From assembly GCA_016722945.1 (NCBI GenBank), contig JAEQMT010000038.1:372001-436000 (forward strand): 64,000 nt of DNA, read 5' to 3'. The position numbers and the translations under genes were made by a program. Below the pieces are notes generated by a model, which did no database searches, was not told where the DNA came from, and saw only the letters and a program-made list of their open reading frames with translations. This document shows, one piece after another, positions 4,062 through 15,200 of this stretch (positions within the stretch are counted from its first letter, which is position 1; every line of letters begins with the position of its first letter). The stretch is from Desulfofustis sp. PB-SRB1 (lineage in GTDB: Bacteria > Desulfobacterota > Desulfobulbia > Desulfobulbales > Desulfocapsaceae).

Positions 4062-4826
4062 TCATGTAACCCCTCCCTTTTCACGCAACATCACAAGATC
4101 GTCATCCAGACTGTGCCGCAGGATATTCAGACTAGACGAGAGCGATGCCACATGTTCGGCTGAGACATGGGCCAATCGGAAGGGGAAGATGCTCGGGCTG
4201 TCGAGCAGGTCTTTTATGGCGGCTGACCCGTTCACCCTGGCGCGGAGGGATGCCTCCACCATCCAGGCAATGAGCCTGTGGTCTTCAACCGAAAACTGAT
4301 CCCCTTGGCCGTAGACGCCTTTGTCGCCCGTCTCTTTCAAAACGCCCCAATCGATGAATGATCGAAGTACGCGCCGGGCGGCCCGTGATGCGGTTTCTCT
4401 TTCTCCGTAATCTTCTTTCACCCGTCGTTGAACATGTGCTGCAGCGGCTGTTCCCTGAAGCCGCAAGAGCCTGCCGGTGTGAGCGGCAACCGCACCCCAA
4501 AATGGGTAAGCAGCCAGTGTCATGCCCCAGTGAACGGCAATTCGGTCTTTGCGTGGAAGTCCCCTGAGTATCTCCAGACCCTCGTCCCGCAACTTCTCCA
4601 GTTCACGAGGCACGGTGAGCCAGGTCTTCAGGAGAATGGTGATGACCTTTTCACGATTGCCCCTGACGGACTTTCCACCGACCGACACCTTGTTCTGCAG
4701 CAGATCTTGGAGCGAGTCGTTGATTGTGGTATTGTTGTTCCCGGCCAGTATCAGATTGGCTGTCTGCTCGAACCATTCGAGCCTGATGCGTTGGCTGAAG
4801 CCGATCTGTGCTCTCCGTCCGTTCAT
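4062..4826 (-). CDS. brxA: BREX protein BrxA (DUF1819)
   Basis: 254 residues of the DUF1819 family, a small largely helical protein common to BREX loci. Typical segments are EWFEQTANLILAGNNN, KSVRGNREKVITILLKTWL and RIAVHWGMTLAAYPFWGAVA. Structures of BrxA show a DNA-binding fold; its exact task in phage restriction is not settled. The start ATG overlaps the pglZ stop by 4 bp (ATGA), so translation is coupled and this is the last gene of the BREX operon. Its position after pglZ is the type 3 BREX order. No damage is visible. Confidence 0.85.
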   Translation of the reverse strand: MNGRRAQIGFSQRIRLEWFEQTANLILAGNNNTTINDSLQDLLQNKVSVGGKSVRGNREKVITILLKTWLTVPRELEKLRDEGLEILRGLPRKDRIAVHWGMTLAAYPFWGAVAAHTGRLLRLQGTAAAAHVQRRVKEDYGERETASRAARRVLRSFIDWGVLKETGDKGVYGQGDQFSVEDHRLIAWMVEASLRARVNGSAAIKDLLDSPSIFPFRLAHVSAEHVASLSSSLNILRHSLDDDLVMLREKGGVT

Positions 4827-6862
4827 GTGTCCCTCCGCTCGATCTGAATCAGAGGGACGATGAGCTCTTCAAGAGAAGCGCCGCCATGTCCGACAAGGCT
4901 TTCGGTCTTGCCGACAAACGCGGCGCGATGCGGAGCAAGCAGGGGCAGATAGTCCTCCGGCAGCCCGATAGGCAACCATTCCAAAGCGTCTGGGAATCGC
5001 TCCCTAACCTGACCGCGCAGTGAGGAATCGGGATAGATTCGAGCGCGCTCCCCGCGCAGGTCCGCCACGGCACCTTCAGCGGGTCGACCACAACCTGACG
5101 CCTCGATATTACCGTGATCCGACGACAGGTAGACACGAAATCCATTTTCCAGAAGCAGATCGAACAATTGCGCCAAGAACGGTCCTGCCGCCCACTGGCG
5201 GATCTGGTTGTGCATGCCCGCTGCGCCAAGTTCCATGCCGTGCATGATCTTGTCCACTTTGTCGATAACCAGACCGACCACGCGCACCCTGGGCCGGGCA
5301 ACAATCTCCTCCACGCTTTCCAAGGCGCCGCTGCCCAGCCCCTTGGCATATGCGACCTCCTGCTGTGTGAGTCCCTGGTCCACCCAGAATTGCGACCACA
5401 GCGCCGGCTCTTTGTCGGTGGTGTAAATGCTGTTCGGAAAATAGATCGGCGGCTTTCCCGCAAATGCCGCCTGGCGTGAAACAGAGGTGATGGTCGGTAT
5501 CCAGGCGAACACCGCGTTCTCACGGAAGCGGTAATTGGCTCTTTGCTTAGCGATTTCCCCGCGGATGATGATCCACTGATCCAGCGCAAGACCGTCCACC
5601 AGGACGAACGCAGCCTTGTGGTGCTTGGCGTCGTTGACATGGCGGGAGAGGAAACGGGGAATATGGTGGAGCATGACCGGAGGAGCCGGGGGCAGATTGA
5701 CCAATCCTGCGTAGCGTTTGGTCAGCCACGACACGAGTGCGGCATCGATCTGAGCTTGCAGCGCCTCTATCTTCTGCCGCGCCGGTTCCGGTAGCACTGC
5801 ATCCGAATCCAGAGCCAGAGCCATCAGCTCCGCCCAGGTTTTGGCAAAGTGGAACCAGTCGTCGTGTCGTGTGTCCTCGTTGGGAATATCCGCCGCCAAG
5901 GTATCGAGGAGCCCCTCGACGCGCCTCGTCCGATCCGCCTGCTCGTCGGTGCGGATGCCGATGGCGAGCCAGGTCTTGGAGAGCGACTCGGCTTTTTCAT
6001 GAGGAACCGCTTCAAGCAGCCCTTCGACAAACAGGTTGTCGATGTAGACACGGATGTCGTCATGGTCGAAGGGCAAGTCCGAAGGACCGGAATACTCAAA
6101 CCCGTAGGGTTTCTCATTCTCGCGAACGCCGGTAGCGTCCTGGGTTGCCGAACGATTTAAGAAGATGGGCCAGCGTTCCTGGAGAAAGGCGAAAAAGGCT
6201 TCTCGATCCGGGATGATCGTTTCGAGGGGCCATTGGTCAAAACCGCTCTGTTGGCGCAGCACCTGAACAAATCGCTCATCAAGCAAACCGGGGATGCGTT
6301 GCTCCCGATAGTGACGGCGAAGCAGTGCCCGCAGTAGATCGGACGGTTTGCAGATGAGTTCAGGGGCGATCTCAAATACATGGCGCAGAACGAATTCCTT
6401 TGTAGGATTGTCGCCCAGCACACCGGGAGCGTGCCGCTTCTGGGCTTCGTAGAGCGCATCCAGATCGCCACGGTCCAGGGCGGTCACGATGGGATAACTC
6501 AGGTTGGGAAAAATCTCCCCGAGGTTGAATGACAAGCGGCGGCCGGCCTGGAGCAGATCGTATGGCAGGCAGTTAAGGTCGCTTGCCGCGGAGCGCAGTA
6601 CGACCACCAAATCCGTCTGCTCACCCTGGTCCCAGCGGGAGCGAAACTTGGATTCGTAGGCATAGCGAAAGGCGACATGATCCTCAAATGGAATCAATTC
6701 AAAACCACGCTCGCGTATGCCTGCCAGAACGCCTTCTTCCAGAAGCAGGCCGTCCGGATCGGCAGCCAGGGTGAGCCGGGCGACATTGGGAGTGAACTCC
6801 CGAAGGATTTGGCTTCGCCAGGATCCTTCGGAGTGCGGCGTGCGTGGTGCGTGGTGCGTCAT
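4823..6862 (-). CDS. pglZ: BREX protein PglZ, alkaline-phosphatase superfamily
   Basis: 679 residues with the PglZ domain. Metal-binding type motifs are visible: FVLVDGLALDQW near residue 420, HGMELGAAGMHNQ near 544 and YLSSDHGNIEASG near 582. PglZ is a core, essential BREX component with a phosphatase-like fold. The expected start is near SWRSQILREFTP; here the first 13 residues (MTHHAPRTPHSEG) are encoded by a heptamer-repeat array, which supplies a replacement ATG overlapping the stop of the upstream S23 gene (ATGA). The rest of the protein looks intact. It is translationally coupled to brxA downstream. Confidence 0.9.
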   Translation of the reverse strand: MTHHAPRTPHSEGSWRSQILREFTPNVARLTLAADPDGLLLEEGVLAGIRERGFELIPFEDHVAFRYAYESKFRSRWDQGEQTDLVVVLRSAASDLNCLPYDLLQAGRRLSFNLGEIFPNLSYPIVTALDRGDLDALYEAQKRHAPGVLGDNPTKEFVLRHVFEIAPELICKPSDLLRALLRRHYREQRIPGLLDERFVQVLRQQSGFDQWPLETIIPDREAFFAFLQERWPIFLNRSATQDATGVRENEKPYGFEYSGPSDLPFDHDDIRVYIDNLFVEGLLEAVPHEKAESLSKTWLAIGIRTDEQADRTRRVEGLLDTLAADIPNEDTRHDDWFHFAKTWAELMALALDSDAVLPEPARQKIEALQAQIDAALVSWLTKRYAGLVNLPPAPPVMLHHIPRFLSRHVNDAKHHKAAFVLVDGLALDQWIIIRGEIAKQRANYRFRENAVFAWIPTITSVSRQAAFAGKPPIYFPNSIYTTDKEPALWSQFWVDQGLTQQEVAYAKGLGSGALESVEEIVARPRVRVVGLVIDKVDKIMHGMELGAAGMHNQIRQWAAGPFLAQLFDLLLENGFRVYLSSDHGNIEASGCGRPAEGAVADLRGERARIYPDSSLRGQVRERFPDALEWLPIGLPEDYLPLLAPHRAAFVGKTESLVGHGGASLEELIVPLIQIERRDT
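6831..6858 (+). repeat. heptamer array, left arm (four NNGTGCG units)
   Basis: Four exact 7-bp units in phase: GAGTGCG, GCGTGCG, TGGTGCG, TGGTGCG. Together with the inverted array at 7228-7255 they flank the S23 gene. The array encodes the first residues of the present PglZ. Confidence 0.9.
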
Positions 6863-7239
6863 GAGGCATCTCCTTTTTCAAGAGACTTTCTCAAACCACC
6901 AATTAAGTTGCCTACATCACGACAGAGTGCATAAGTGCTTGTAAATTCTTGACCCGATATGTAACTGAGGCTTTTGGCAATATGCAATTGGCTTCGTACT
7001 TCTGCAACAGATCCCCGTGCAATTGATAAGAATTGGCGAAATTCTGGTCTGCTGTATCGTTCAAATCCTTCTGCGATATTTGACATTACTGAAACAGCAG
7101 CTCGCTGTATCTGGTCTTTGAGCCCAAAGTCCCGAGAAATTTTTTCTTTTGACGTAAGTTGATAGATTTTTATGGCAAGGGCATGCGCTTTCTGCCACGC
7201 AACCAAATCCTCGAATTTTTCAACTTTCGCACTACGCAC
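6859..7239 (-). CDS. four-helix-bundle (S23 / 23S rRNA intervening-sequence) protein
   Basis: About 126 residues of the S23 four-helix-bundle family: KFEDLVAWQKAHALAIKIYQ, then QIQRAAVSVMSNIAEGFERY and SRPEFRQFLSIARGSVAEVR. Relatives occur inside 23S rRNA intervening sequences and, as Avd, in diversity-generating retroelements, where they form basic pentameric barrels. I chose the GTG at 7239, which lies within the right heptamer array; the usual start would be next to KFEDL and no ATG is available. The stop overlaps the pglZ start. It is out of place in a BREX operon: it sits between inverted 7-bp repeat arrays in the ruins of the brxHII gene, so it probably arrived with them. Its role is unknown. 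Confidence 0.8.
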   Translation of the reverse strand: MRSAKVEKFEDLVAWQKAHALAIKIYQLTSKEKISRDFGLKDQIQRAAVSVMSNIAEGFERYSRPEFRQFLSIARGSVAEVRSQLHIAKSLSYISGQEFTSTYALCRDVGNLIGGLRKSLEKGDAS

Positions 7240-7255
7240 CTCGCACCTCGCACTT
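7228..7255 (-). repeat. heptamer array, right arm (four CGCACNN units)
   Basis: Four exact 7-bp units in phase: CGCACTA, CGCACCT, CGCACCT, CGCACTT. This is the reverse complement pattern of the array at 6831-6858, and has the same copy number. Confidence 0.9.
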
Positions 7256-7257
7256 TT

Positions 7258-7443
7258 CCGGTTCCACCCGGACGACAAAAGAGGCGCCATTTCCGGGTAA
7301 ACCTGGGCCTTACGTTCGAGTTCCTCGTGCCATGAGCGTTCTCCCTGCCGAAGCAGGTTCAGCACACGAAGAATGAGCCCGGCTTCGATGGTTTTTCCGA
7401 GTCCGACCTCGTCGGCCAGCAGGTAACGAACCCGGGCTTCCGC
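7258..7443 (-). pseudogene. brxHII: relic of BREX helicase BrxHII
   Basis: One frame reads EARVRYLLADEVGLGKTIEA and GLILRVLNLLRQGERSWHEE. It thus contains the SNF2-type Walker A motif (DEVGLGKT) followed almost at once by what looks like a different part of the protein (ELERKAQVYPEMAPLLSSGW). A type 3 BREX helicase is around 900-1000 residues, so well over 800 are missing. The relic occupies the expected brxHII position between pglX and pglZ. It is fused at one side to a GxxExxY gene and at the other to the heptamer/S23 insert. The Walker A match is firm; the assignment of the second part is inferred from position. Confidence 0.7.
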
Positions 7444-7732
7444 CCTATGATCTTCAGGTAATTGAGCACCTGGCCTATTTCATGGTCCGTAATCTTCTCA
7501 ATCACCTTAGTTTCTACGACGACCTTATCGAAGACGATCAAGTCCGGCACGTACTCGCCCACTTTGACGCCTTTATAGACCACATCGAATCGGGGCTGTT
7601 GCTGGTATGAAATTCCTTGACGCTGAAATTCGACAGCCCAAGCATTCTCATAGGGTTTTTCCAACAACCCGTGCCCGAGCGTATTCAGCACTTCCATCGC
7701 ACAGCCGATGATTCGTTACGTCTCATCTTCAT
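7444..7732 (-). pseudogene. GxxExxY protein, degraded at both ends
   Basis: The core reads GCAMEVLNTLGHGLLEKPYE and continues to HEIGQVLNYLKIIG, the hallmark of the small GxxExxY family (G-x-x-E-x-x-Y is GLLEKPY here). The start is damaged: an ATG at 7732 begins MKMRRNE and one base appears missing before the IIGCAMEV frame. At the 3' end the usual NF..W segment is lost and the frame runs into the helicase relic, stopping at 7359. The family's function is unknown; it is PD-(D/E)XK-like in some descriptions. Confidence 0.7.
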
Positions 7733-7739
7733 GAACCAA

Positions 7740-7772
7740 TCTGTGTGTATCCGTGTTCATCCGTGGTTCACT
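7740..7772 (-). repeat. ATCCGTG tandem repeat upstream of the GxxExxY gene
   Basis: Imperfect 10-11-bp units (ATCCGTGTTC, ATCCGTGGTTC, preceded by a diverged ATCTGTGTGT) lie immediately before the GxxExxY start and at the pglX stop. I remember similar ATCTGTG/ATCCGTG repeats next to GxxExxY genes elsewhere, but cannot verify that here. Confidence 0.5.
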
Positions 7773-10438: not shown

Positions 10439-10447
10439 CCTAAACAG

Positions 10448-10482
10448 GTCACGGGTCCCGAGTCATGGGTCACGAGTCGGTC
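10448..10482 (+). repeat. heptamer array, GTCNNGR type, left arm
   Basis: Five consecutive 7-bp units: GTCACGG, GTCCCGA, GTCATGG, GTCACGA and a diverged GTCGGTC. It begins 10 bp upstream of the pglX start and pairs with the inverted array at 10578-10614. Confidence 0.85.
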
Positions 10483-10577
10483 GGTTTCAAACATTTTCTG
10501 CTGGCGAGGTGGCCGAATGTTTTTATTCATATTCGCTCCGCTCAGGTCTCAAGTTCAGTATCACGGGTCTCAGGTTG

Positions 10578-10614
10578 GCTTGACTCGTGACCCGCGACCC
10601 GCTTGACTCGCGAC
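10578..10614 (-). repeat. heptamer array, GTCNNGR type, right arm (inverted)
   Basis: Units GCTTGAC, TCGTGAC, CCGCGAC, an expanded CCGCTTGAC and TCGCGAC, the reverse complement pattern of the array at 10448-10482. The 95-bp space between the arms holds no gene. Confidence 0.75.
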
Positions 10615-10680: not shown

Positions 10681-12192
10681 TCACTCGCTGCCGCTTGCGA
10701 TCCCCTTCAGCACCTTCCGCCCCTTCTCTGTCAGCCTGTATTTTTGCTTGCTGCTTCGAGGTTTATCCGGGATGGTCATTTCGATGAACCCTGCCTGGAG
10801 TGCAGGTAACAAATAAGACTTGCGGAAGTGTTCATCGTCCCTCAGCTTTAGAGCGGATTGCAGGCTTTGCCTTGTCATTTCCCCTGAAATAAACGTTAAA
10901 ATCCGAACTTCCGGGGTAACTTCCGGGGTGACTTCCGGGGTGACTTCACCCGTGACTTCCCCCGTGACTTGGGGTGTAATTTCGGGGGCGCCTGATTCTT
11001 CACCTGTTGTGCTGAACTCCGGCACCTTAACGATGATTCGGAAAATATCCCCTTCAATCAATTGGGGATCCGCACCGCCATACGCCTTTCCATACCGCAT
11101 CATCTTGCGCATACCTGAACCGAGCTCGTCGGCGCGGCCTATCTGACGGAAGAAAGCTGCGATGACCGGATTTTTGGGGAATGGCGTGAATGTTTCCAGG
11201 TTCAAAACGCCAAAGCCGTGAGGTTTGTTGCTGTTTTCAGCCCGAACCTGACCACGCTCAATGATCAACTTGGCGGGGAAGGCGTTGGTGTATTCCCGAT
11301 GGATCAGGATGTTTGAAGCGACTTCGCGGAAGATGGCATCGCGGATGCTGATACTGGTCGTACCTTCGAGATAGAAAGGGTCGGACAGATGCTTGGCAAC
11401 GAAAGCCATAATGCGGTCGTAGCTCTCGACCAGATTGACGTCCACGAAATCCCGGTCGTCATAACGGTCCAGGTTGACCTTGCGCAAAATCAGGTCGGTG
11501 CGGTGGTGCGGCACCGCTGACAACAACGGAGACCGTTTTCCGAGCAGCAACAAGCCGGCAAGAGTCACGCCGCTCTTGCCGGTTTCCGGGTCTGTCTGAT
11601 AGATCTGCGCGCTCTTGAGAAGCTCCATATCGTCCATGTTTCGCCATGGGTAATCCTCCCGACGCAAAACCGCGATCTTGCGGCACTGCCCAATCAACTT
11701 CCGCTCCAGTTCGTCAAGCCCGGCATACGGGTAAATCTTGTTCTCTGAATAAGTGGTATGTTTGCGCTGGTAAAGGTCGGCTACCTGCCGGGTGTGATCG
11801 GTTATGTCAAAGTCGCCGTCTTCATTGCGGTCAAATATGCGGCCGTTGCACCTGTGTACCTGCGAACTCTCCGGCACATAGATGCGAAGCATCAATCTTC
11901 CTTCGACCGCCACTTCGTTTACCGATAGATAAGCAGGCGGATGGATTTTTTTGGGATTGTTGATGGCGGTAACAAAATCTTTTTTTATTTGTGCAACGGC
12001 GCTCTGTTCAATTCCCTGAACAATCCCGGAGTCCGAAACCCCCAACAAAATAGTGCCGCCATACCGATTCAGGAAAGCGCACACCGTCTGGTAAACATCC
12101 CGATTGAGCTGGTTGCGGCAGGCCTTGAATTCGAGATCGATGCCTTCACCCTTGCGGATCAATTCGATCAACTGCTTTTCATTCGCGTTCAT
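10681..12192 (-). CDS. AlbA_2-domain ATP-binding winged-helix regulator
   Basis: 503 residues. The N-terminal AlbA_2 (Schlafen-like) domain at about 1-130 has EGIDLEFKACRNQL and FLNRYGGTILLGVSD. A central ATPase_4/GHKL-like part contains IFREVASNILIHREYTNAFP and GSGMRKMMRYG. The C-terminus has tandem Thr-Pro-Glu-Val repeats (about 395-420) and a winged helix. The family is usually annotated as a transcriptional regulator or RecG-like protein; its action in BREX is unknown. It lies 9 bp after brxC and is in the operon, an accessory position not part of the minimal type 3 set. It may control the locus or act as an added defence factor. Confidence 0.75.
   Translation of the reverse strand: MNANEKQLIELIRKGEGIDLEFKACRNQLNRDVYQTVCAFLNRYGGTILLGVSDSGIVQGIEQSAVAQIKKDFVTAINNPKKIHPPAYLSVNEVAVEGRLMLRIYVPESSQVHRCNGRIFDRNEDGDFDITDHTRQVADLYQRKHTTYSENKIYPYAGLDELERKLIGQCRKIAVLRREDYPWRNMDDMELLKSAQIYQTDPETGKSGVTLAGLLLLGKRSPLLSAVPHHRTDLILRKVNLDRYDDRDFVDVNLVESYDRIMAFVAKHLSDPFYLEGTTSISIRDAIFREVASNILIHREYTNAFPAKLIIERGQVRAENSNKPHGFGVLNLETFTPFPKNPVIAAFFRQIGRADELGSGMRKMMRYGKAYGGADPQLIEGDIFRIIVKVPEFSTTGEESGAPEITPQVTGEVTGEVTPEVTPEVTPEVRILTFISGEMTRQSLQSALKLRDDEHFRKSYLLPALQAGFIEMTIPDKPRSSKQKYRLTEKGRKVLKGIASGSE
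10907..10990 (-). repeat. 12-bp tandem repeat encoding TPEV/TGEV units
   Basis: About seven copies of a 12-bp unit (consensus on the plus strand ACTTCCGGGGTG, with variants ACTTCACCCGTG and ACTTCCCCCGTG) encode the linker before the winged helix of the AlbA_2 protein. Copy number could change by slippage without losing frame. Confidence 0.85.
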
Positions 12193-12201
12193 TGGTTGCG
12201 C

Positions 12202-15200
12202 CTATTCCAATACAATCCTTACCTTGCCGGGCTCCTTGCCTTTGGTGAGCTTGTCCAGGTACTCCTCGAATCGTTTCTTCATCTCAGCCGGTGTTGCCGG
12301 TGAACCACCCGACAGTAGCGCCGCACGCAGGTCCGCGGTCTTGACCGGTACCTTTTGAAGCCCGGAAAGCACCTCGCTCAGGGCATGGATAAAATCCTGG
12401 CCCAGGTCATCGGGTAACTCCCGCTTCTTGATAAAGCCGTTCACCAGCTTCTTGGGTTCGGGTTTGAGCAGGTCCAGGTTGCCCCTGGTGGTCGGGTCTT
12501 CCAGGTTGGTTAGCAGCGTCTGGGTCCAGTTGGCAACCAGCTTGTCCAACTCGTCGTCCAAACCATCCAGCACTGTTCCGGCGGGTGCGGTGGGCGGCTC
12601 TGCTCCCGGCTTGTAATTGCAGTGCGGGCATACCGGTGATGCGTCCAGCTCCTGCTCGGTGAGGGCAAAGCAACTCTTCAATCCGGCCAGGCGGTTTTGA
12701 AAGTCGCTCAGGTGCTGGCGCGGCATCAATTCGATGGTGGAGAGCTTCTGCAGCACCTTGAGGCGCTCATCACCCATGAGTCGGGTCTTACGCTTGTCCT
12801 CGTTTACACCCAATCGCGCCTTGGTGTGCATTCCCAGGTAGGTCTGCACATAGGCCCTCTTCAAATCAGTTAGTTCCCTTCGGATTTGAGTGCGTAGTGC
12901 GTGGTGCGTGGTGCGATCCGAACCGACTATCTTATTAACCACATCGCACTTCGCACTCCGCACTTTCGCACTCCACGGGTGTTCGGCGGACAGAACCGCC
13001 TCTGCGGTGGATAGGAATGAGGCAGTGGAACCGAGATCGGCTACCATCTCCTGAAGGGATTCGATCTCGGCCAGGGAGTTGAGCCCGTCCCGATGGGCGG
13101 TCACCTCCAGGGCGTCATGGCGGAAGTTCTTGAGCTTTCCAGGTGAGCTGTAGGCTTGAAGCGATTCCAGGAAGCACTTGGTCTCATTGAGCCGGGTACG
13201 GAGTTTCTGGGCTTCTTCCTCAGCCAGGAGATTCCGGCTCCAGAAAAGCAGGCCGCTTTGCAGGCTCTGCTGCAGGACGACCAGCTTTTCCACTGATTCG
13301 GAAATGGCTTTCTGGAGCTGCTGAACCGGTTCTTCCTTGCTCTGGGTAACCAGTTGGGCCATGCCGGGGGTGAGACCGAGCAGTTCAAACAGGGATTTGA
13401 GCGCCGGAAGGTTCCAGTCCTTGGGCCGCTCGATGTGCTTGAACTGTGTGAGTTCATCCACGCCGGTTCCCGCCAGCTGCGGCAAGCCCGTGGCATCGAA
13501 TTTTTTGCCGACAATGGCGAGTACCAGATCACCCGAGTAGACTAGGACGGCCAGGACGACCGCGACCCATTCGGGCTCCAGCCGCTGCCGGTCCTTGTCC
13601 ATGTACTCCACGCCCTTGTCGTCCTGGATCAGCTCGGAGCGGTTGACCACCTGGCCGTGGCCTTTCTTCTTGAGCAGGCTGAGGATGTGATTTGCGTGTT
13701 TTGATTTGTAGGGGTCGAGCCGCTCGCCGTCGAGCAGATCCAGGGCATCGAGCACCGCCGTGGCCTGCTTGGTGCGATTCTGGCCGGCGATGGCGCGCAG
13801 GGCATCCTGCGCGGCCTGGTTTCGGTTGGTCCCGGTGATGAGCACCGAGAAGAAGGGATATTCGGGCGCTTGATCCTGGAAGTGGGCGCCCAGACAGATG
13901 CCGGAGATCGTATTCACCAGGTCGCGGAAATTGATGCGCTCATGGGAGCCGATACCGGACAGCTCCCGGATCGATTTACCCTTGGCCCATTCAGTGAGCG
14001 ACTTGGCGCGCCCCTGATAGGTGACCTCAAAGGCGTCGGTCATGTGTTTTTGCAGCCACTGCACCAATTCTCGCAGAAAATGGGATGATTTGGACTCGTA
14101 AGTGGACTTGGCGAGCCCCGATGAGGTGGAAGCCAGGTCAAGGGCCGCAGCATAATTCCTGAGCGCGGTGCGAAACTCATCGTCCGTGTTGATTAACCGC
14201 AGGAACAGCTCGTCGGCGTTCTTCTCATCCTTGAAGTGCGGTGGATCGAAGGGCTGGATGAAGTAGAGGTAAAAGTCTCGCGGCGGCACGGCGGTGGATC
14301 GTTCGTTGGGCGCGCCGAAAAAAAGATATCCCTGACGCGCGGCCTTGCGCTCCAGCCATTCCAACTCGTGCTGCCAGATCTTATAGCCGGTCACATAGGT
14401 CTGGTCCGTGCACTCCATGACTCGCTTCAGGGCCTCGTAGTAGTAACGGTTCAGATGCGAGGAGCCGAGGCTCTCGGCCCGCTTTTCAATCAGGGCGTCG
14501 AAGTCGTCAGTCTTCTTCAGGTCCAGATAGAACTGGCGATTGTCCGGGTTCCATGAAATGAACTGCCCGCTGACCGTCTTGTGGATTTCCCGCAGGACCG
14601 TCTCCACCTGGGAAAGCAGGTCGTCGGCCGGATCGCCGCCGAGTTCCTCAATGCCCGGTTGATAGAGACAGAGCCCGTCACGCAGCTCCGCGGCAGTTGC
14701 ACCGAGGGTGGCGTAAATGTCGCCGGTGGTGAGCCGGTGAACCGACAAAGCATGGATGAGCCGCAATGCCATGGGCTTGTATGCCGGGCGCGTAAAGGCC
14801 TGCTGGATGCGGGATTCCAACACCTGGCTGCAGTCGATCACCGCCTTGATATCCGGAACGGCACGAAACGAGGGGTTCTCTCTGAGGTTAGCCCAATAAG
14901 TGTCATAGGCAATAAGCCCCGGCCGGTCGTCCGGCATGTCCTGGTCGAGAATCTTTTTCATGGCCCGCGAGAGCGTCTTCAGCACTTCGCGCTTCTCTAC
15001 GGCGGTCACCCGTTCAAAGGTGTCGATATAATCGGGATGCACCGGGAAGAGGCGGACGAACTCGTCCATCCTCTCGTTCATGTGGCCGTAGAATGTGCCG
15101 AAGGGCGTCAGGTACTCGCGAATCTTGGCCTGTTGCTCGCCGGTCTTTTTGAGCAGCCGCTCTGCCACCACGAATTTGATGTCCTTGCGGGCGATAAGTA

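Follow-up and report, generated by a model that had tools for sequence, protein, structure and literature searches.

The S23 gene and its arrays in the BREX-3 operon

The DNA analyzed here is a stretch of 64,000 nucleotides from Desulfofustis sp. PB-SRB1 (the window), which carries a BREX-3 operon with the gene order brxF, brxC, an SLFN/AlbA gene, pglXI, a GxxExxY (PDDEXK_3) gene, S23, pglZ, and brxA (Table 1). The S23 gene belongs to the S23/23S_rRNA_IVP family (PF05635, E = 2.5e-37; TIGR02436, E = 2.3e-35), and solved structures are available for relatives of its product (2GSC and 2RLD). A preliminary description of this DNA had placed four phased heptamers on each side of the gene, and direct reading reproduced them exactly. 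The units are GAGTGCG, GCGTGCG, TGGTGCG, and TGGTGCG at 6831 to 6858 and CGCACTA, CGCACCT, CGCACCT, and CGCACTT at 7228 to 7255, and the two arrays are inverted repeats of each other (27 nt at 85% complementarity). The same reading confirmed that the GTG start codon of S23 (7237 to 7239) lies inside the upstream array and that its stop codon (6859 to 6861) adjoins the downstream one. The stop codon also overlaps the start codon of pglZ (ATGA), and the downstream array, read on the minus strand, codes the first pglZ codons (MTHHAPRTPHSE). The operon contains an extra gene, SLFN/AlbA-Fic-like, between brxC and pglXI (10681 to 12192), and the genome encodes a second PglZ, 54% identical, at G000:C15:136002-137990.

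Table 1. Features of the S23 locus and the surrounding BREX-3 operon, in window positions
Feature	Position	Strand	Remarks
pglZ (BREX-3)	4823..6862	-	start codon and first residues element-derived
Downstream heptamer array of S23 gene	6831..6858		4 x NNGTGCG on +; direct read
S23 / four-helix-bundle gene	6859..7239	-	PF05635, TIGR02436
Upstream heptamer array of S23 gene	7228..7255		4 x CGCACNN on +; inverted versus 6831-6858
brxHII remnant	7256..7442	-	motif I (DEVGLGKTIEAG) joined to C-terminal end; intact homologue in L196
GxxExxY (PDDEXK_3) gene, truncated C-terminally	7359..7697	-	second inverted-flank small-gene class
S23-less inverted 7-bp array pair, pglXI start	10447..10608		GGTCACG / CGTGACC; direct read
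S23-less hairpin in brxC	12889..12974		GTGCGNN x4, 25-nt loop, CGCACNN x4

The element occupies the junction between brxHII and pglZ. The S23 gene had been described as sitting in the place of brxHII, which holds for its position at this junction, although it is not a simple replacement, as a brxHII remnant of about 60 residues persists. What is left is motif I, joined to the C-terminal end; the remainder of brxHII is deleted, which indicates that the gene was lost through a separate internal deletion. In the closest related BREX-3 locus (L196, with PglZ 88% identical), brxHII runs directly into pglZ and the junction carries neither arrays nor S23, so that an ancestral state with arrays but no S23 gene, which the preliminary description had considered, is not seen there. 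Three other BREX-3 loci also have additional sequence at this junction: L197 has an S23 gene, L202 has what remains of an array (MHHTPRTLHSAK), and L203 has a GxxExxY gene accompanied by repeats of the ATCCGTG type. At the window site itself there is no visible target duplication and no close empty-site pair, L196 being the nearest element-free relative.

A search of the whole 4.69-Mb genome with GTGCGNNGTGCGNNGTGCGNNGTGCG, allowing at most one mismatch, returned three matches, namely the two S23-flanking arrays and one in brxC, and the reversed-pattern control returned none. The four-unit GTGCG pattern is confined to the BREX-3 locus of the window in this search, which, together with the lag spectrum reported below, argues against a chance origin of the arrays. 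The hairpin in brxC is the only S23-less copy of the GTGCG unit in the genome. Compared with all eight aligned relatives, it takes the place of homologous coding sequence length for length and in frame; a simple insertion is ruled out at this site, as the homologues align without gaps.

Heptamer arrays as a general feature of S23 genes

S23 genes are present in 207 of 395 sampled genomes of the phylum to which the window organism belongs. The flanks of 30 top-scoring loci from these genomes, 40 more, and 80 loci from many other phyla were surveyed; the loci were picked because they scored best or contained a conserved peptide and therefore do not form a random sample. Flanking 7-bp arrays of the kind noticed at the window locus are strongly enriched in them, at 42 to 54% against 3 to 4% of control flanks. 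At the strict threshold, lag-7 self-similarity was found upstream of 44% and downstream of 54% of S23 genes in the phylum set and in 42% and 44%, respectively, of the set from all phyla, versus 3.2% and 3.8% for the flanks of 1,210 ORFs on the same contigs. Lags 3 to 6 and 10 to 13 are near zero around S23 genes, and lag 8 is found in a minority. Inverted complementarity between the left and right flanks reaches at least 15 in 81% of 152 S23 elements, compared with 3.3% of swapped-flank pairs. Where both ends exceed the threshold, they usually have an identical period, including elements with 8/8, 9/9, and 6/6, and the heptamer unit, which differs among elements, is identical at the two ends of any one of them. 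About 15% of S23 genes have an array on neither side at the threshold used. Array density is about ten times higher near S23 genes than elsewhere on the same contigs. The other S23 copies of the window genome lie inside 23S rRNA genes and have their own 7-bp arrays, CAGGNNN/NNNCCTG and CTTCTGN.

Such arrays are not a general trait of small accessory genes, since 30 GxxExxY genes from the same phylum had lag-7 flanks in 0% of cases. The GxxExxY genes (7359 to 7770 in the window; L297 to L326) have flanks of a different make. These are mutually inverted in 73% of the 30, versus 4% of swapped pairs, and are built of irregular 8- to 10-bp motifs, e.g., CACAGAG, GCAGAG, and CACGGAATA. These genes apparently represent a second, sister class of small-gene element with a nuclease-fold protein.

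Filled and empty sites

Filled and empty versions of individual sites were found by searching plasmid records with S23 loci. The cleanest case is shared by Trichormus variabilis plasmid C and Scytonema, which carry arrays plus S23; at this site Nostoc linckia and Aulosira, with about 98% identity, have AAAAAGTAATTAAC, and the 5-bp sequence GTAAT is duplicated around the insert. In the comparison of Nostoc MS1 with Trichormus plasmid A, the insert lies at a stop codon and has TACTAAG at either end; Nostoc ATCC 53789 pNsp_a has a TTCTA duplication relative to C052, and for pNsp_c of the same strain, also relative to C052, the duplication is only ATG, at a TAATG junction. The lengths of the target duplications are thus inconsistent (3, about 5, 5, and 7 bp), and the flanks are more than 95% identical in only one filled/empty case. 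Calothrix, the N. edaphicum nrdB-nrdA junction, Aulosira, and C052 plasmid D also show arrays plus S23 versus element-free sites, with edges blurred by divergence.

What is gained at the filled sites is the arrays plus S23 and nothing more, and the empty counterparts have no heptamers. At three unrelated plasmid sites, three elements of a single family have about 418 bp in common, consisting of the arrays and S23 alone. S23 family members on cyanobacterial plasmids therefore show both insertion into sites that are empty in relatives and target duplication. The proposal that the arrays are the ends of a mobile unit gains support from these plasmid comparisons, in which arrays and S23 were gained together, and a landing of S23 in pre-existing arrays is ruled out by the absence of heptamers from the empty sites. 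One Nostoc plasmid site exists in three states, S23 with arrays, arrays only, and no arrays (L215 versus L212 and L214). A different S23 element, with GGGAAAA arrays, is found in L218 versus L217 at the next gene junction of the plasmid operon of L209 and has about 40 nt of non-array sequence remaining at its right end.

Arrays without an S23 gene

Inverted pairs of heptamer arrays that lack S23 are common on S23-bearing contigs, the two arrays usually lying 0 to 180 bp apart. Pattern searches of 16 genomes were run with the units of three elements; matches overlap within an array, so the number of sites is smaller than the number of matches. TCGTAAA gave 39 and 60 matches in its two carrier genomes, TTAGCAG gave 33 in its carrier, and AATAGTG gave 74 and 62. 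Outside the carriers, most genomes had no matches to the three units, while counts were low in congeners and in a small number of others, and the reversed-pattern controls for the three units gave a single match in all across the 16 genomes. Twenty S23-less sites coincide almost exactly with the gaps between ORFs, which the arrays fill, and they often extend into the stop codon of the upstream ORF.

Four species of one genus (G039, G108, G137, and G164) carry a mini-element of about 110 bp at a site where a fifth species (G075), with flanks 90 to 94% identical, lacks it, so that arrays without S23 move as well. The number of unit copies differs among the four carrier species, and the upstream gene is shortened where the site is filled. 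The loop is inverted between two of the species (L222 in G039 versus L243 in G164), suggesting recombination between the mini-element arms.

To compare genomes with and without the protein family, we sampled random 20-kb stretches that contained no S23 gene. Lag-7 arrays numbered 0 per 400 kb in four complete S23-negative genomes versus 23 in six complete S23-positive genomes, most of the 23 coming from three of the six. Lags 5, 6, 9, 10, and 11 showed no appreciable difference between the two groups. In this sample, then, arrays accompany S23 at the level of whole genomes.

Covariation of unit and protein and placement of the elements

Among 108 period-7 elements, similarity of the heptamer unit climbs with S23 identity (Mantel r = 0.24; 0 of 1,000 permutations), from a mean of 0.51 at 30 to 40% S23 identity to 0.70 to 0.77 at 60 to 80%. 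From this covariation we infer that S23 physically binds the arrays, although the correlation could also reflect coinheritance without binding. The unit is strand oriented, the strand leading into the S23 gene being G rich and C poor. In four informative pairs the dN/dS ratio of S23 is 0.10 to 0.14, which points to purifying selection on the protein; one near-identical pair with very few changes has a ratio of 0.86, and dS is saturated in three pairs.

The upstream gene is codirectional for 85 of 91 S23 genes versus 212 of 281 control pairs (P = 8e-5), and co-orientation with the downstream gene does not reach significance (P = 0.11). Either the element chooses such targets or insertions behind a codirectional gene may be selectively tolerated. 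G.U pairs are not in excess among the mismatches between left and right arrays (169 versus 173; P = 0.87), which gives no sign of selection acting on an RNA hairpin, though the element can fold as RNA; the result is as expected if the arrays are read as DNA. S23 is the sole gene between the arrays, and no transposase domain was detected in it by Pfam.

Relation to known systems

The 23S rRNA intervening sequence (IVS) of Coxiella burnetii is about 430 nt long, with an S23p ORF and complementary termini, and its RNA is excised by RNase III (PMC4990558). Three tandem GACAGAT heptamers beside this ORF were described in 2016 (PMC4990558). The window element resembles a 23S rRNA IVS in having an S23 protein (PF05635/TIGR02436) and complementary termini capable of forming a stem, but it is located between brxHII and pglZ, outside rRNA, and is not classified as an rRNA IVS for this reason. 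IVS descriptions are confined to rRNA and treat the heptamers as a strain-variable detail at one end, whereas S23 elements have arrays at both ends, sites in protein operons, empty sites, and dispersed S23-less copies. The 23S rRNA intervening sequences are resident members of this element class.

Similarity to REP/BIME-RAYT systems and to MITEs lies in the combination of a protein-bearing copy with dispersed, short, intergenic inverted-repeat copies that share its ends. S23 elements differ from these systems in that their protein-bearing copy has no Y1/HUH or DDE transposase and in that they have target duplications. Each of their ends consists of tandem copies of a heptamer whose sequence varies freely, in contrast to the single fixed palindrome or terminal repeat of REPs and MITEs. 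Avd of diversity-generating retroelements is a related four-helix-bundle family, but heptamer arrays are absent from avd genes, which adjoin a reverse transcriptase. Beside the window S23 gene, where the flanks consist of the arrays and operon genes, we found no reverse transcriptase and no template or variable repeat.

Several dispersed repeats have the same period. Like S23 arrays, the GGGNATC and TAACTGA repeats and the STRR of cyanobacteria, another heptanucleotide group, are made of 7-bp tandem units close to stop codons. GGGNATC repeats of Xanthomonas and Nostoc lie near stop codons, often as convergent pairs in Xanthomonas (PMC4692102), and TAACTGA repeats are found in Beggiatoaceae and cyanobacteria (PMC4679880), but neither report mentions S23. 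According to work cited in PMC4679880, heptanucleotide repeats outnumber every other class of long repeats in most prokaryote genomes. In the open-access literature searched, PMC4990558 alone links S23 to heptamers, and no description of a general class of S23 arrays or of mobility outside rRNA was found. The preliminary description had called the element undescribed; this stands for the general class and its non-rRNA mobility but not for the S23-bearing rRNA IVS or the Coxiella heptamers. Since none of these reports ties the dispersed repeats to S23, we regard the system as new with respect to the open-access literature, its rRNA-resident members being already known.

Proposed mechanism and alternatives

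The best joint explanation of these observations, to which we give a probability of roughly 0.7 with its mechanism included, is that the S23 gene and its two arrays constitute a single mobile DNA element of about 0.4 to 0.5 kb. The heptamer-array ends are most likely recognized as DNA by S23. A multimer of the four-helix-bundle protein would recognize its own array unit at both ends and bring the ends together, and it would then insert the element by recruiting a host nuclease/polymerase activity or through a putative activity of its own. Against this reading, S23 has no known recombinase domain and the family is not known to bind DNA. Insertions would be tolerated preferentially where a codirectional gene lies upstream, at stop codons and gene junctions, S23-less arrays would be mobilized in trans in the way that RAYT mobilizes REP sequences, and arrays would gain and lose units through slippage. 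The window element would have entered the brxHII-pglZ junction of the BREX-3 operon in this way, and it now supplies the start codon of pglZ.

Mobility could instead operate at the RNA level, with S23 binding an array-hairpin transcript, as Avd does, and a reverse transcriptase acting in trans to copy it into a nicked target. The relatedness of S23 and Avd, the ability of the element to fold as RNA, the co-orientation with the upstream gene, and the window-genome copies inside 23S rRNA genes, from which RNase III cuts out IVS RNA, are all consistent with this, and duplications of variable length would be expected from copying into a nicked target also. We nevertheless consider it unlikely, as the array mismatches lack a G.U excess, avd genes have no arrays, and 9 of the 28 genomes rich in S23, among them complete genomes with 4 to 6 S23 copies, have no RVT_1 reverse transcriptase. 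A resident reverse transcriptase is therefore unnecessary for many S23 copies, and an obligatory one is not supported.

Somewhat less probable still is that the hairpins serve chiefly as host stabilizers of mRNA 3' ends, as terminators, or as S23-bound regulatory sites, with mobility explaining only their origin. Arrays do begin at stop codons and occupy intergenic gaps, and the similarly placed GGGNATC repeats of Xanthomonas and Nostoc are transcribed (PMC4692102); however, unit, copy number, and presence differ between close relatives, and the elements alter genes, as seen in the replaced start of pglZ and the shortened gene upstream of the mini-element. Very improbable, in our estimate, is an origin of the arrays as ordinary simple-sequence repeats or quasipalindromes, formed by slippage and template switching, between which S23 lands secondarily. 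The variation in unit number between species, the inverted loop, and the length-neutral exchange of coding sequence by the brxC hairpin would fit such processes, but the heptamer-free empty sites already contradict them, as do the enrichment at lag 7 only (with some at lag 8), the tracking of the S23 protein by the unit, and the lack of arrays in the sampled S23-negative genomes.

Beyond the mobile DNA element itself, a broader proposal is offered tentatively, as we hold it to be somewhat less than an even chance: S23 proteins would mobilize a new class of transposable elements that have lineage-specific heptamers and no known recombinase fold, these elements and their derivatives would cause most of the heptanucleotide excess of prokaryotes, and rRNA IVSs would be one niche of the class.

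Significance

The mobile-element reading places rRNA intervening sequences in one class with mobile elements found genome-wide and provides a testable role for S23, a very common protein family. The end of the element would be unusual for a transposon in that its period is fixed while its sequence is free and matched to the protein. At the level of annotation, N termini of the "MTHHAPRT" type, as in the window pglZ, are explained as element derived. S23 elements also offer a source for the heptanucleotide repeats that are overrepresented in prokaryotes, and the class may account for the high frequency of tandem 7-base repeats in bacteria.
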